Of a stretch of DNA of 64,000 nt, positions 52,466 through 58,201 are shown in pieces. The notes under the pieces were generated by a model. That model searched no databases. It was not told where the DNA came from and was given only the letters and a program-made list of their open reading frames with translations. This stretch comes from Acidobacteriota bacterium (GTDB taxonomy: Bacteria > Acidobacteriota > Terriglobia > Terriglobales > Acidobacteriaceae). Position 1 is the stretch's first letter, and every line of letters starts with the position of its first letter. The stretch lies in assembly GCA_021778845.1 (NCBI GenBank), contig JAJYBU010000017.1, forward strand, positions 1 through 64,000, in the 5' to 3' direction. The position numbers and the translations under genes are program-made.

Positions 52466-53242
52466 ATGTCTACGCCGGTGGTTGAGTCTCCCAAAATATT
52501 TTCACCAGAACTGGTGGCCGCGCAGCCGTATCTGATCGAGCAGGATTGGGCAGCCTATACGTCCGAGCAGCATTCCATATGGACCGAGCTAGTAACCCGC
52601 AGAATGCCGCAACTCGAACAGCACGCGTGCAGCGCATACCTCGAAGGTTTCGAGCAGATTGGGCTTCAGGTCGACCAACTGCCGCAGTTGGCCAGGGTGA
52701 GTGCGCGGTTGCAGCCACGCACCGGCTGGAACTCAACGCCCGTCAGCGGTTTCCTCCCGTCGGACGCGTTCTTCGAAATGCTCGCAGCGCGAAAGTTTCC
52801 CACCACCACCTGGATTCGCAGCCGCGACGCCATGGAGTACACTCCCGAACCTGATATCTTTCACGACGTCTTTGGCCATGTGCCAATGCACGCGCACCCC
52901 GTCTTCGCAGATTTTCTGGAGCACTACGGAAAAGTCTGCGCAAGCCTCAAGAGTGCGGAAGCACTCGAACGCATGGGCCGCCTCTTCTGGTTCACCGTGG
53001 AGTTTGGCGTCATCCACGAGGCCGGAAAGATCAAGGTCTATGGCAGCGGTCTGATCTCATCGCACGGCGAGTGTACCCACGTTGTCGAGCGCGGCGCGGG
53101 TCTCGAGATTCGCGAGTTCAACCTCGATCAAGTCCTCCACACCGTCGTAGACGTAAGCAAGATGCAGCCCGTGCTCTATGCAATTGAAAGCTTCGACCAA
53201 ATCTACGAGGCCGCGAAAGAAGCGGAATCCCGGCTAACTTAA
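52466..53242 (+). CDS. phhA: Phenylalanine 4-monooxygenase
   Basis: EYTPEPDIFHDVFGHVPMHAHPVFADFLEHYG, FWFTVEFGVIHEAGKIKVYGSGLISSHGE. Confidence 0.93.
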   Translation: MSTPVVESPKIFSPELVAAQPYLIEQDWAAYTSEQHSIWTELVTRRMPQLEQHACSAYLEGFEQIGLQVDQLPQLARVSARLQPRTGWNSTPVSGFLPSDAFFEMLAARKFPTTTWIRSRDAMEYTPEPDIFHDVFGHVPMHAHPVFADFLEHYGKVCASLKSAEALERMGRLFWFTVEFGVIHEAGKIKVYGSGLISSHGECTHVVERGAGLEIREFNLDQVLHTVVDVSKMQPVLYAIESFDQIYEAAKEAESRLT

Positions 53243-53344
53243 TGACCCGCAGCGCGCACGGAGCAAAGGCTCGCTGCGCGCCAGCGTGTATTGCCGGATT
53301 TGCCCTCGGCGCCGAGTAACGATATGCTGGAAGGAATGATAGTG

Positions 53345-53407
53345 ATGCGCAGCGCAGCTTGTTGTAACTGTCCCGGCCTCGTGGTCTCGGACGCTGCTGC
53401 TTGTTGA
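53345..53407 (+). CDS. Putative Cys-rich leader peptide (MRSAACCNCPGLVVSDAAAC)
   Basis: Short ORF: ATG CGC AGC GCA GCT TGT TGT AAC TGT CCC GGC CTC GTG GTC TCG GAC GCT GCT GCT TGT TGA; 4 Cys of 20 codons, all TGT; GGAAGG SD-like 10 nt upstream (GTG at 53342 gives spacing 7). Confidence 0.6.
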   Translation: MRSAACCNCPGLVVSDAAAC

Positions 53408-53443
53408 ACGCTGGATAAGCGAAGCCTGAGAATTACCCCGAGT

Positions 53444-53475
53444 GCCCACGAATCAAATCGTGGGCTTTTGTTTTT
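53444..53475 (+). terminator. Intrinsic terminator/attenuator between leader ORF and sulfite/nitrite reductase
   Basis: GCCCACGA-ATCAAA-TCGTGGGC followed by TTTTGTTTTT. Confidence 0.8.
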
Positions 53476-53513
53476 CTGCGGAAGCATCTTTGCGAGAGCG
53501 ATTGGAGAATGCA

Positions 53514-55241
53514 GTGAGCGAAGTAGTCAAGACTGGTACCAGTGACGTTGCAGCGAAAGAGACGAAGGCGCAGCGGTCCGAGCGACTGAAGCGCGAGAAG
53601 AATCCCTGGAACGCATGGCACGAGGTGGAGCAGTTTGCGCGCGACGGCCGCGCCAGCGTTCTCCCCGAGTGGAACAGCTTCTACTTCAAGTGGTGGGGAA
53701 TCTACACCCAGGGCGACGGCCTCGGCGTCACCGGCGGCAAGGGCGGCGAGGGCAAGGCCAGCGACTACTACATGATGCGCATCGGCCTGCCCAACGGCCT
53801 GCTGACCGCCAGGCAACTGCACGCAATTGCAGCGATGACAGAGAAGTACGCACGCGGCGTAGCCGACATCACAACGCGCCAGAATATTCAGTGGCACTGG
53901 TTGACCCTCGAATCTTTGCCGCTGGTGGTGCAGGAGTTGGCGGCAATCGGGCTCAGCCCCAAGGGCGCCTGCGGCGATGTCGCGCGCAACGTCACAGGCT
54001 GCCCGCTCGCGGGACTGGACGGGCATGAACTCCTCGATGCCTCGCCGCTCACCTTGCAGGTAGCGCAGATGCTGACCGGCAATCCGGAGTTCGTCAACCT
54101 GCCGCGCAAGTTCAAGGTGAGCATCACCGGCTGCCCCATCTGGTGCAGCTTTCCCGAGATCAACGACGTCGGGTTGACCGGACTCAAGCGCATCAAGGAT
54201 GGCAAGGAAGAAGTTGGATACAGCATTCGCGTCGGCGGCGGCCTGTCCGCCGAGCCGCATCTTGCCGTGCGATTGAACGCGTTCATCCCGCAGGACAAGG
54301 CACTGGCCGTGGTCCACGCTGTCTGCGAAATCTTCCGCGCCCAGGACGCCCTGCGCGAGAGCCGCACCCATGCCCGCCTGAAGTATCTATTCCTGCGCCA
54401 CGAGTGGACAGCCGAGAAGATGCTTGCCGCCATTGAGGAAAAACTCGGCTATACCTTCGATCCCTGCGAGGAAGGCCCGGTCGCGCAGGATATCTATCGC
54501 GACCACGTCGGCGTGCACCAGCAGCGTCAGCAGGGCCTCAGTTACGTCGGCGTGACAGTCCTCAACGGCCGTCTCAATCCGCAGCAACTCCATGCGCTCG
54601 CGAGTTTGAGCGAAGACTTCGGCGACGGCCATCTGCGCGCCACGATTGGCCAGAATATCGTGCTGGTGAATATCCCCAACGCCAACGTTCCGGAGTTGGT
54701 AGAGAAGATCACCGCGCTGGGATTGCAAGTCGAGCCCTCAGTGTTTTATCGCGGCGCGATCGCTTGCACCGGCACGGAGTTTTGCAAGCTCGCGATTTCC
54801 GAGACAAAGGGCTTCGCAAAATGGCTCGTCCGCGAGATGGAGGAGCGACTGCCGGAGTTCGATCAGCAACTGCGACTCCACGTAACCGGTTGCACAAATA
54901 GCTGCGGCCAGAGTTGGATCGCCGACATCGGCCTCGAAGGCAAGAAGCTCAAGAAGGATGGGCAGATGGTCGACGCGTTCTATTTCTGCGTCGGCGGAGC
55001 CGTAGGCCAGTATGCTGGAATCGCGCGTCAGATTGGGTTTCGCGCCACCGCAGAGGATTGCCCCGACGCCATCGAGCGGCTGCTGCGCGGCTATTTGAAG
55101 CAGCGCAGCGAGGGCGAGAGTCTGCGCGCATACTTCCGGCGCACCAGCGATGACGATCTCCGCGCACAGCTTGCCGGTGCCGTCGTGGAGCCAGTCGAAC
55201 GCGATCCATCACCAGGACGTGTTCCGACGAATGTTGGTTGA
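53514..55241 (+). CDS. Siroheme [4Fe-4S] nitrite/sulfite reductase (NirA/SirA family)
   Basis: DVARNVTGCPLAG, FKVSITGCPIWCSFPEINDVGL, ACTGTEFCKLAISETKGFAKWL, LHVTGCTNSCGQSWIADIGL; GTG start with GGAGAA SD-like. Confidence 0.92.
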   Translation: MSEVVKTGTSDVAAKETKAQRSERLKREKNPWNAWHEVEQFARDGRASVLPEWNSFYFKWWGIYTQGDGLGVTGGKGGEGKASDYYMMRIGLPNGLLTARQLHAIAAMTEKYARGVADITTRQNIQWHWLTLESLPLVVQELAAIGLSPKGACGDVARNVTGCPLAGLDGHELLDASPLTLQVAQMLTGNPEFVNLPRKFKVSITGCPIWCSFPEINDVGLTGLKRIKDGKEEVGYSIRVGGGLSAEPHLAVRLNAFIPQDKALAVVHAVCEIFRAQDALRESRTHARLKYLFLRHEWTAEKMLAAIEEKLGYTFDPCEEGPVAQDIYRDHVGVHQQRQQGLSYVGVTVLNGRLNPQQLHALASLSEDFGDGHLRATIGQNIVLVNIPNANVPELVEKITALGLQVEPSVFYRGAIACTGTEFCKLAISETKGFAKWLVREMEERLPEFDQQLRLHVTGCTNSCGQSWIADIGLEGKKLKKDGQMVDAFYFCVGGAVGQYAGIARQIGFRATAEDCPDAIERLLRGYLKQRSEGESLRAYFRRTSDDDLRAQLAGAVVEPVERDPSPGRVPTNVG

Positions 55242-55250
55242 GGAGAGGTT

Positions 55251-55901
55251 ATGAGTTTGTTCCCAATCTTTCTGAAGCTCGCTGCTCGGCCTTGCGTGGT
55301 CATCGGCGCAGGAAATATCGCGGAGTCAAAGATCGAGAGCTTGCTCACGGCTGAAGCGAGCGTCACCGTCATCGCTCCTGATGCTCTGCCGCGCGTGCAG
55401 GCATGGGCTGCCAGCGGCGAGCTTACCTGGAAGCAGCGCGAGTATCGCGTGGGTGATCTGGCGGGCGCATTCCTGGTCGTCGCCGCAACGGCCACCGCAG
55501 CGGTGAATCGTGCGGTGTACACGGAAGCCACAGCCGCAAATATCCTGTGCAATGCGGTCGATGATCCACCGTTCTGCGACTACTATTTCCCGAGCGTCGT
55601 GCGTAGAGGCGAGTTGCAGATTGCAATCTCGACCGCCGGTGAGAGTCCGGCCCTGGCGCAGCGCCTCCGCAAGGAGATCAACGCGCAGTTGCCCCTCGAC
55701 ACTGGCGAGTGGTTGATGGAACTCGGCCGGCTGCGGCGCGAGGTAACAGCCGTGGAGCCAGTGGGCGAAGACCGCAAACTGCTGCTCCATCAACTCGCGC
55801 AGCGCGAGGTCTGCGGCTTTGCGGAGTGCCCTTCCCGCCTGCGTGCGCGCCAGCATGCGCAGGAGCATGGCTTTTTGCCTGCAGCGGAGATTGCCCAATG
55901 A
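55251..55901 (+). CDS. Precorrin-2 dehydrogenase/sirohydrochlorin ferrochelatase (CysG N-terminal/Met8-like)
   Basis: MSLFPIFLKLAARPCVVIGAGNIAESKIESLL, NAVDDPPFCDYYFPSVVRRGELQIAISTAGESPALAQRLRKEI. Confidence 0.93.
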   Translation: MSLFPIFLKLAARPCVVIGAGNIAESKIESLLTAEASVTVIAPDALPRVQAWAASGELTWKQREYRVGDLAGAFLVVAATATAAVNRAVYTEATAANILCNAVDDPPFCDYYFPSVVRRGELQIAISTAGESPALAQRLRKEINAQLPLDTGEWLMELGRLRREVTAVEPVGEDRKLLLHQLAQREVCGFAECPSRLRARQHAQEHGFLPAAEIAQ

Positions 55902-56674
55902 CTATAGCTCAGAAGGGCACAGTATATCTGGTCGGTGCAGGGCCCGGCGATCCGGAGTTGCTGACAATGAAGGCGCTGCATCTGCTGGAGTCGGCCGACG
56001 TCGTGCTGCACGATGACCTCGTACCCGAGGAGGTGCTGCACCTGGTGCATCGTCATGCTCTCCTGACGAGTGTGGGCAAGCGTTGCGGGCGTCCGCGGAT
56101 CACCCAGTCGGCCATTCATGCGCGCATGATCGAGTCTGCGCGAGATGGCCAGTCGGTCGTGCGTCTCAAGAGTGGCGACCCGCTCGTCTTCGGTCGCGCC
56201 AGCGAGGAGATTGCTGCACTCCGGGCTGCCGGCGTGAAGTTTGAAGTCGTACCAGGAGTCACCGCCGCTCTGGCTGCCGGAGCAGCGCTGGCGTTACCCC
56301 TCACCGATCGCAAGACGGCGAGCAAGCTCATCTTCTGCACAGGCCATCACGCAGATGGAAAGGACCTTGCTCCGGTATGGAGCGGCCATCTGCCGGAGGA
56401 TGCCACCCTGGTCGTCTACATGCCAGGGCGCGATATGGCGAGGATCGCGCGCGAACTTCGGAACGCAGGCCTTCCGGACGATGTCGCGTGCTGCGCCGTC
56501 TCGCATGCGGCCACTGCGCGGCAGAGTTGGGTCGCGGCGCGGTTGAATGATCTAGCGCACCTGGAGTGCGGACCAGCTCCAGTCCTCCTGCTCGTAGGCC
56601 GAGCCATGCAGTCGCTGCTCGTGGGCGATGCAGACACTCAGGTCTTAGCCCTGATCGATGAAGCCACCGCGTAA
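55898..56674 (+). CDS. cobA: Uroporphyrinogen-III C-methyltransferase
   Basis: GTVYLVGAGPGDPELLTMKALHLLESADVVLHDDLVPEEVL, VVRLKSGDPLVFGRASEEIAAL, VVPGVTAALAAGA. Confidence 0.95.
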   Translation: MTIAQKGTVYLVGAGPGDPELLTMKALHLLESADVVLHDDLVPEEVLHLVHRHALLTSVGKRCGRPRITQSAIHARMIESARDGQSVVRLKSGDPLVFGRASEEIAALRAAGVKFEVVPGVTAALAAGAALALPLTDRKTASKLIFCTGHHADGKDLAPVWSGHLPEDATLVVYMPGRDMARIARELRNAGLPDDVACCAVSHAATARQSWVAARLNDLAHLECGPAPVLLLVGRAMQSLLVGDADTQVLALIDEATA

Positions 56675-57022: not shown

Positions 57023-57637
57023 TCAGCGGCTGCGAGGGTTGGGTATCCATCCATTCACTTCAGCCTTGATCCGACTACTCGTATCAAGGATCGAAACTCT
57101 CTCGCCCACCACCAGAGATTCTATCAAGATATCGAGGCAGAAGCCGTTGCGGTTCTGGGCGCTCGGAACCTTGAGAGCCGAAACAGCCCCACTCTGAAAG
57201 CACGCAGCACCAAGTTGCTGCGTAGGCGTCAGCTTCTTACGAGCATTCAATATGAACCGCGACGGAGTCGCACTGACCAACTCGTCATAGGATGTGCCAA
57301 GATCCAGATACAAGTCAGGCATGGTCAAATCAAGAACACGTTGCAGATCGCACTCAAGAGTCAAAATCAGATCCGGGTCGCGTGGCGCACCGCGAAGTTG
57401 ACCGTCCGCCGTTGAGAAGAGGGCTTCGGCTTCGAGAAGCGCTGTCATCTGACTGTCTGCTGTGTATAGAACCGGAAATGTATGAGGCGCGTTATAACGG
57501 CCACCACGCTCAAATGCGCCCACAGCGGACAACGGATTATCACGCCAGCGATCAGCGATGAGCCGATAGCTGGGCTTTGTGCAGGCGGTCAGCGGAGCGT
57601 GCTCCAATACCGTGATGATTTTTTCGATGGAGTGCAA
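57023..57637 (-). CDS. RES-domain toxin
   Basis: YRLIADRWRDNPLSAVGAFERGGRYNAPHTFPVLYTADSQMTALLEAEA (RES R...E...S pattern). Confidence 0.82.
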   Translation of the reverse strand: MHSIEKIITVLEHAPLTACTKPSYRLIADRWRDNPLSAVGAFERGGRYNAPHTFPVLYTADSQMTALLEAEALFSTADGQLRGAPRDPDLILTLECDLQRVLDLTMPDLYLDLGTSYDELVSATPSRFILNARKKLTPTQQLGAACFQSGAVSALKVPSAQNRNGFCLDILIESLVVGERVSILDTSSRIKAEVNGWIPNPRSR

Positions 57638-57647
57638 TTGGTGCTCG

Positions 57648-58022
57648 CTAGGCCGGTTGCCTGACGTTCATGGCGTCTACGAATAGCTCTAACGGGGTCA
57701 GGTCACCCTTCTCGATGAACTCGATGGGCGCGTGATTCTCAAGATTGCGGTTCGGAGCATTGAGGAATATCCGGGCGTTCGTCTTGTCGCCGGCATAGAG
57801 TTCCACCAGCGCCACCCAAATGCGGTACAGCCGACGCAGCTCCCCTTGAAGACTGCTGGCATCGGGCGACTTGCGAACCCCTGGTGCTTTACGCCCAATG
57901 GCCTCGGCGATCATTGCCACCGGAACATTGAACTCACGCGCAATCCGCGCCGCATCCAAACGGCCGGTGTCTGGGTTGAAGAGTGCTGGCTCCATTGCAG
58001 GTATGGTGTGGGCAGCAGACAT
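57648..58022 (-). CDS. Xre/MbcA/ParS-type antitoxin (DUF2384-like)
   Basis: Upstream of RES gene; RIAREFNVPVAMIAEAIGRKAPGVRKSPDASSLQGELRRLYRIWVALVELYAGDKTNARIFLNAPNRNL. Confidence 0.8.
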   Translation of the reverse strand: MSAAHTIPAMEPALFNPDTGRLDAARIAREFNVPVAMIAEAIGRKAPGVRKSPDASSLQGELRRLYRIWVALVELYAGDKTNARIFLNAPNRNLENHAPIEFIEKGDLTPLELFVDAMNVRQPA

Positions 58023-58201
58023 ATGCACCTCTACAAAGACGATATAGTGACGAATCAGTTGCGTCAAGGTTTTGTAATAGTATCTCTACTTTCACCTCAA
58101 AATCTTCTTTTCAAAATGTGCCCCTCTATAGAAGTCCGTACAACTCGATTTTTAGGCGTCTTCGAGCGTCGTATTTCCAAACAAATCAATCGGACAGAAG
58201 A

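Follow-up and report, generated by a model that had tools for sequence, protein, structure and literature searches.

A conserved cysteine-codon leader and terminator upstream of nirA in Acidobacteriaceae: a predicted leaderless transcription attenuator of sulfite reduction

The sulfite reductase operon in a 64,000-nucleotide stretch of acidobacterial DNA (contig JAJYBU010000017.1, hereafter the window), which belongs to a draft genome of 3.77 Mb, is preceded by a short open reading frame rich in cysteine codons and by an intrinsic terminator. We interpret this element as a ribosome-mediated transcription attenuator that senses the supply of cysteinyl-tRNA, a reading to which we give a probability of roughly 0.8. 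The original prediction, made from this single sequence, had proposed a Cys-codon leader and an attenuating terminator on the operon, and comparison across 40 genera strongly supports it. The features of the window copy, all on the forward strand, are as follows.

53300-53305, +, predicted -35 element TTGCCC (family consensus TTGAC[GTCA]), 17 nt from the -10 element
53323-53328, +, predicted -10 element TATGCT, ending 7 nt before ATG 53336; predicted transcription start at about 53336
53336-53407, +, putative leaderless leader ORF of 23 aa, MIVMRSAACCNCPGLVVSDAAAC, assigned from promoter-start spacing and comparison with locus L142
53360-53371, +, candidate regulatory Cys codons TGT TGT AAC TGT; TGTTGT-N3-TGT invariant in eight Granulicella-group loci
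53378-53385, +, 5′ arm of hairpin P, CUCGUGGU, within the leader ORF
53379-53390, +, 5′ side of the candidate antiterminator (UCGUGG 53379-53384, CUCGG 53386-53390)
53435-53442, +, 3′ arm of hairpin P, ACCCCGAG, adjoining the terminator
53438-53451, +, 3′ side of the candidate antiterminator (linker CCGAG 53438-53442, terminator 5′ arm CCACGA 53446-53451)
53444-53475, +, intrinsic terminator and T tract; 8-bp stem, invariant in eight relatives, and 6-nt loop
53504-53507, +, Shine-Dalgarno-like GGAG of nirA
53514-55241, +, NirA-type ferredoxin sulfite/nitrite reductase, GTG start (NirA family protein, E 7e-116)
55251-55901, +, precorrin-2 dehydrogenase (CysG N-terminal/Met8-like)
55898-56674, +, uroporphyrinogen-III C-methyltransferase (CysG C-terminal/CobA-like)

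The operon thus consists of nirA followed by two enzymes of siroheme synthesis, and the start of nirA lies about 107 nt downstream of the leader stop codon. By their NirA proteins, the closest named relatives of the window are Granulicella, then Edaphobacter, Terracidiphilus and other Acidobacteriaceae, and the nearest solved structure is that of Mycobacterium tuberculosis NirA (1zj8). A RES/Xre-type toxin-antitoxin pair lies just past the operon on the minus strand (window 57023-58067). The same genome encodes a second, distant NirA-like homologue (33%; L002, G000:C61:63817-65247) whose gene contains one in-frame TGA.

The leader ORF contains the cysteine codons originally described (TGT TGT at 53360-53365, TGT at 53369-53371 and TGT at 53402-53404) and ends at TGA 53405-53407. 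Its start had been placed at ATG 53345; ATG 53336 is very probably the true start, and ATG 53345 an internal alternative. In the nearest relative (L142), whose NirA is 92% identical to that of the window, the ATG located 7 nt past the -10 element is kept and the codon corresponding to ATG 53345 is ATA. A promoter search of the window with a threshold of 9 of 12 consensus bases found none, because TTGCCC and TATGCT match 8 of 12; the lack of any promoter upstream of 53336 had been named as grounds for abandoning the prediction, and this candidate pair with its 17-nt spacer now provides a predicted one. In the family, a TTGAC-17-TANNNT promoter whose -10 element ends 6-8 nt before an in-frame start codon is present in 62 of 87 loci, whereas the same promoter-start spacing never occurs in the other two frames (0/174). 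This spacing, together with the ATA codon of L142, suggests that the leader is probably translated from 53336 on a leaderless mRNA. The apparently leaderless start, visible in the promoter-start spacing only, had escaped the original prediction.

Of 200 Acidobacteriaceae genomes searched, 131 yielded NirA homologues, and upstream DNA was taken for 110 loci. Using a joint detector for a short ORF with at least three Cys in 12 codons and a terminator hairpin of -9 kcal/mol or lower within 75 nt, we found the module in 92 of these 110 upstream regions, representing 37 of 40 genera, versus 3 of 330 dinucleotide shuffles. The search of orthologous operons suggested with the original prediction thus shows that the Cys codons are kept across the family. 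Among 286 segments of the window, the detector was positive in a single one; this match, on the minus strand at about 45.7 kb, lies inside a longer open frame and was taken as chance. A whole-genome pattern search for Cys triplets alone was too unspecific and was dropped. Among 21 further loci from named records, nearly all present a Cys leader and a terminator before nirA, some with only two adjacent Cys codons. The position of the module varies: it heads a cysD-cysNC-cysH-nirA operon in which nirA is internal (L196, L197), precedes a YeiH-like gene followed by nirA (L200-L202), or lies further upstream of nirA (L021). We could not detect it at three phoU-nirA loci, at the second nirA copy of one genome (G116), in three of the six loci of genus g45 or at the window's own cysD-cysN-cysH cluster. 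We also read the DNA upstream of nirA homologues outside the family, and of these one alone (L208, in G223, from another family of the phylum) has a convincing Cys leader and terminator. The NirA homologue that follows it is distant (37%), and the design may therefore not be confined to Acidobacteriaceae. The module also accompanies an acidobacterial-type nirA (57% identity) on a contig labelled Betaproteobacteria from a bog metagenome-assembled genome (L163), which corresponds either to mis-binning or to transfer.

Cysteine makes up 21.5% of the residues in 92 leaders, and TGY triplets are concentrated in the reading frame (489 in frame versus 172 and 92 in the other two). In the eight Granulicella-group loci, the invariance of the Cys pattern was read from alignment columns 1-6 and 10-12. 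Across loci the leader peptides are diverse, e.g., MCCACCCALRRTCG, MCRCTCCCCCCCCAFVSSDARGLLT and MRSAACCPCPDLGVWDAACG, and retain their Cys codons. The leaders prefer UGU, a feature that the original prediction had not noticed: the UGU:UGC ratio is 326:163 in leaders versus 16:288 in nirA genes, that is, 67% versus 5% UGU, indicating that the control codons are the rare synonym.

The intrinsic terminator was confirmed as described, GCCCACGA-ATCAAA-TCGTGGGC at 53444-53465 followed by TTTTGTTTTT up to 53475, 38 nt upstream of GTG 53514. The region has the layout of a ribosome-mediated attenuator: a short ORF in which codons for the pathway product are enriched, a terminator between this ORF and the first structural gene, and downstream genes that belong to the pathway of the amino acid, as illustrated by the module preceding cysD-cysNC-cysH-nirA and by a NirA closest to that of M. 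tuberculosis.

The antiterminator of the window copy is less clear. The original prediction proposed pairing of UCGUGG (53379-53384) with CCACGA (53446-53451); this pairing is possible, and it extends to a bipartite one with CUCGG:CCGAG, but only the window and L142 have the helix intact, its centre being unpaired in six of the eight Granulicella-group sequences, and the compensatory changes anticipated for it do not occur in any of the eight. The exact 6-bp helix in L142 is not better than chance. In the window, the candidate duplex has a predicted energy of -17.3 kcal/mol (z -1.35, p 0.14), and antiterminator pairing is not above that of shuffles (0.54 versus 0.56). In the Granulicella group, a hairpin P has three pairs changed on both sides, with 88.5% of cells paired and covariation modestly above shuffles (22/500). 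It contests the same leader arm as the candidate antiterminator and leaves the terminator arm free, abutting the terminator without overlapping its core.

At the level of the family, pairing between leader and terminator arm is supported by comparison of sequences. For the leader segment past the Cys codons, pairing with the linker and the 5′ arm of the terminator exceeds that of shuffled segments (mean z -1.2, Wilcoxon 5e-11, uncorrected for relatedness), and native partners pair better than partners swapped among loci (0 of 20000 permutations reached the native value, again uncorrected for relatedness). By group, and with the same lack of correction, the swap test is significant in B (p 5e-5) and D (p 0.01) and not in C or E; in Granulicella it gives p 0.22 (n=6). 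Across the family as a whole, leader and terminator arm are thus co-adapted. Pairing in group B persists through many coordinated changes. The leaders of this group retain the motif GCCGG in two different reading frames, which indicates that selection acts on the RNA, and the neighbour of the motif covaries with its partner (e.g., CUUGUGGG:CCCAUAAG, ACUUGUGA:UCACAAG, CUUCGUU:AACGAAG and GUGAAU:AUUCAC).

Folding of the full-length RNA at equilibrium revealed no effect of the ribosome, the terminator winning at every ribosome position, in comparison with an imperfect comparator in which only four stem pairs were blocked; any switch must therefore be kinetic and decided during transcription. For this reason, we modelled instead a transcript whose terminator 3′ arm is not yet made, with the edge of the stalled ribosome 13 nt beyond the first Cys pair. 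The predicted probability that the terminator 5′ arm pairs upstream is 0.64 in the stalled state; it drops to 0.24 when the ribosome has reached the stop codon, and shuffled leaders give 0.48.

In the mechanism that we propose, RNA polymerase would start at or beside ATG 53336, and ribosomes would load directly on the leaderless leader ORF, with its cluster of mostly UGU Cys codons. With an ample supply of charged tRNA-Cys, the ribosome would reach the stop codon, the leader segment past the Cys codons would be masked or passed, the terminator at 53444-53475 would form, and transcription would end before nirA. Under cysteine scarcity, it would stall on the Cys codons, and the segment just past them would be available for pairing with the linker and with the 5′ arm of the terminator. 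The terminator would then fail to fold in time, and transcription would continue through the sulfite reductase/siroheme operon. Read-through into the operon would thus occur very probably only when cysteine is scarce.

Among other explanations, the least improbable, although still unlikely, is a translational attenuation of the mycobacterial type, in which stalling in the leaderless Cys ORF would alter downstream translation by coupling and the hairpin would be incidental. The same kind of leaderless poly-Cys ORF indeed precedes mycobacterial nirA (PMC4633059), and the acidobacterial genomes encode other leaderless Cys ORFs lacking a terminator; however, a strong terminator with T tract in 92 of 110 loci, the co-adaptation of leader and terminator arm, and the possession by nirA of its own Shine-Dalgarno-like site, about 107 nt from leader stop to start, are difficult to reconcile with it. 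We consider it still less probable that a metabolite-binding riboswitch (for instance for a sulfur compound or siroheme) governs the terminator, the Cys-rich ORF being accidental. The leader region is structured (z -2.07) and hairpin P covaries in Granulicella, but Rfam searches at gathering and permissive thresholds gave no match (best chance score 13.4 bits versus a cut-off of 37), and what the genera have in common is in-frame Cys codons, the frame itself and the leaderless start rather than any single structure.

It is just as improbable that the ORF product is a functional Cys-rich small protein, e.g., a metal- or sulfur-binding one, co-expressed with the operon: the position of the peptide is conserved, but the peptide sequences diverge apart from Cys, the tail is conserved as RNA yet read in two frames, and rare UGU codons dominate. 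Finally, the terminator could be the 3′ end of an upstream transcript and the ORF a product of chance, since the upstream gene, which encodes a phenylalanine 4-monooxygenase and ends at 53242, has the same orientation. This we find the hardest to believe of all, since nirA or its operon retains the module where the upstream gene is a different one, and the module has its own predicted promoter.

The closest precedent for the proposed attenuator is found in mycobacteria, whose poly-Cys upstream ORFs the original prediction had mentioned. Its statement that none was known in the present context needs revision, since a Cys-enriched leaderless small ORF has already been shown upstream of mycobacterial nirA (Shell et al., 2015, Fig. 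7C; PMC4633059). Mycobacterial leaderless poly-cysteine short ORFs are also the subject of Canestrari et al. (2020), as cited in PMC9094748 and PMC9031893. In both phyla, such ORFs head cysteine-metabolic operons including nirA, and cysteine sensing through ribosome speed has been proposed for those of mycobacteria. At mycobacterial cys operons, conserved terminator hairpins were not found in an earlier study (PMC1262725), whereas the acidobacterial leaders, which share the leaderless start as judged from promoter spacing only, are followed by a conserved terminator; this terminator and its pairing with the leader point to transcription attenuation. A second relative is uORFC-8-2 of Rhodobacterales, in which conserved tandem Cys codons in an upstream ORF are followed by an intrinsic terminator and ribosome-mediated attenuation has been proposed (PMC8632094). 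That element, a single conserved RNA motif with mostly UGC codons from one alphaproteobacterial order, lies before cysS and regulates cysteinyl-tRNA synthetase, whereas the acidobacterial leaders are diverse, UGU-dominated and apparently leaderless and precede genes of sulfate/sulfite assimilation, here nirA. The classical trp, his and leu attenuators likewise combine codons for the pathway product, a terminator and a competing antiterminator, for which the present module has a candidate, but the module differs from them by its cysteine/sulfite pathway, its leaderless start and the location of the antiterminator 5′ arm inside the tail of the leader ORF.

We found no published description of such an attenuator in Acidobacteria in a literature search that covered a minority of subscription journals; attenuators predicted in this phylum had almost no assigned functions (PMC2965389). 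Few cases of cysteine-directed attenuation have been described, and the present one adds a whole family with dozens of genera, joining two features earlier seen apart, the leaderless Cys ORF and the intrinsic terminator. It also offers a natural test of how ribosomes that load without a Shine-Dalgarno sequence keep up with RNA polymerase, and of the reasons why cysteine sensing is placed ahead of this one sulfite reductase in unrelated bacteria.

A genome-wide pattern combining the leaderless promoter and the Cys pair gave matches in 29 of 60 genomes and few in the reversed-pattern control; in one genome (G174), the pattern of the leaderless promoter has seven matches genome-wide, four of which start Cys-rich small ORFs. 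The presence of the same module before YeiH-like and 1-Cys peroxiredoxin genes suggests a sulfur/sulfite regulon. Leaderless Cys attenuators may accordingly represent a general sulfur control of Acidobacteriaceae, covering nirA, cysD-cysNC-cysH-nirA, YeiH-type sulfite-resistance transporters and 1-Cys peroxiredoxin, with a terminator-less set (TlpA-like, c-type cytochrome) acting at another level, the whole having arisen independently of mycobacteria and converged on nirA; we regard this broader scenario as evenly poised between true and false. YeiH is linked to sulfite resistance in Salmonella (PMC12880088). A leaderless Cys leader with terminator was observed before YeiH-like genes (PF03601) in L227, L237 and L239 and before 1-Cys peroxiredoxin genes in L226 and L242. 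Leaderless Cys ORFs without terminator (e.g., MQTNPRLCCCCRVLLAPTVVYRVR and MHIASRLCCCCR), possibly corresponding to another mode of control, occur at L172, L173 and L174 of G174 and at L240 and L243, and precede genes encoding CHRD/cytochrome-c or TlpA-like proteins.
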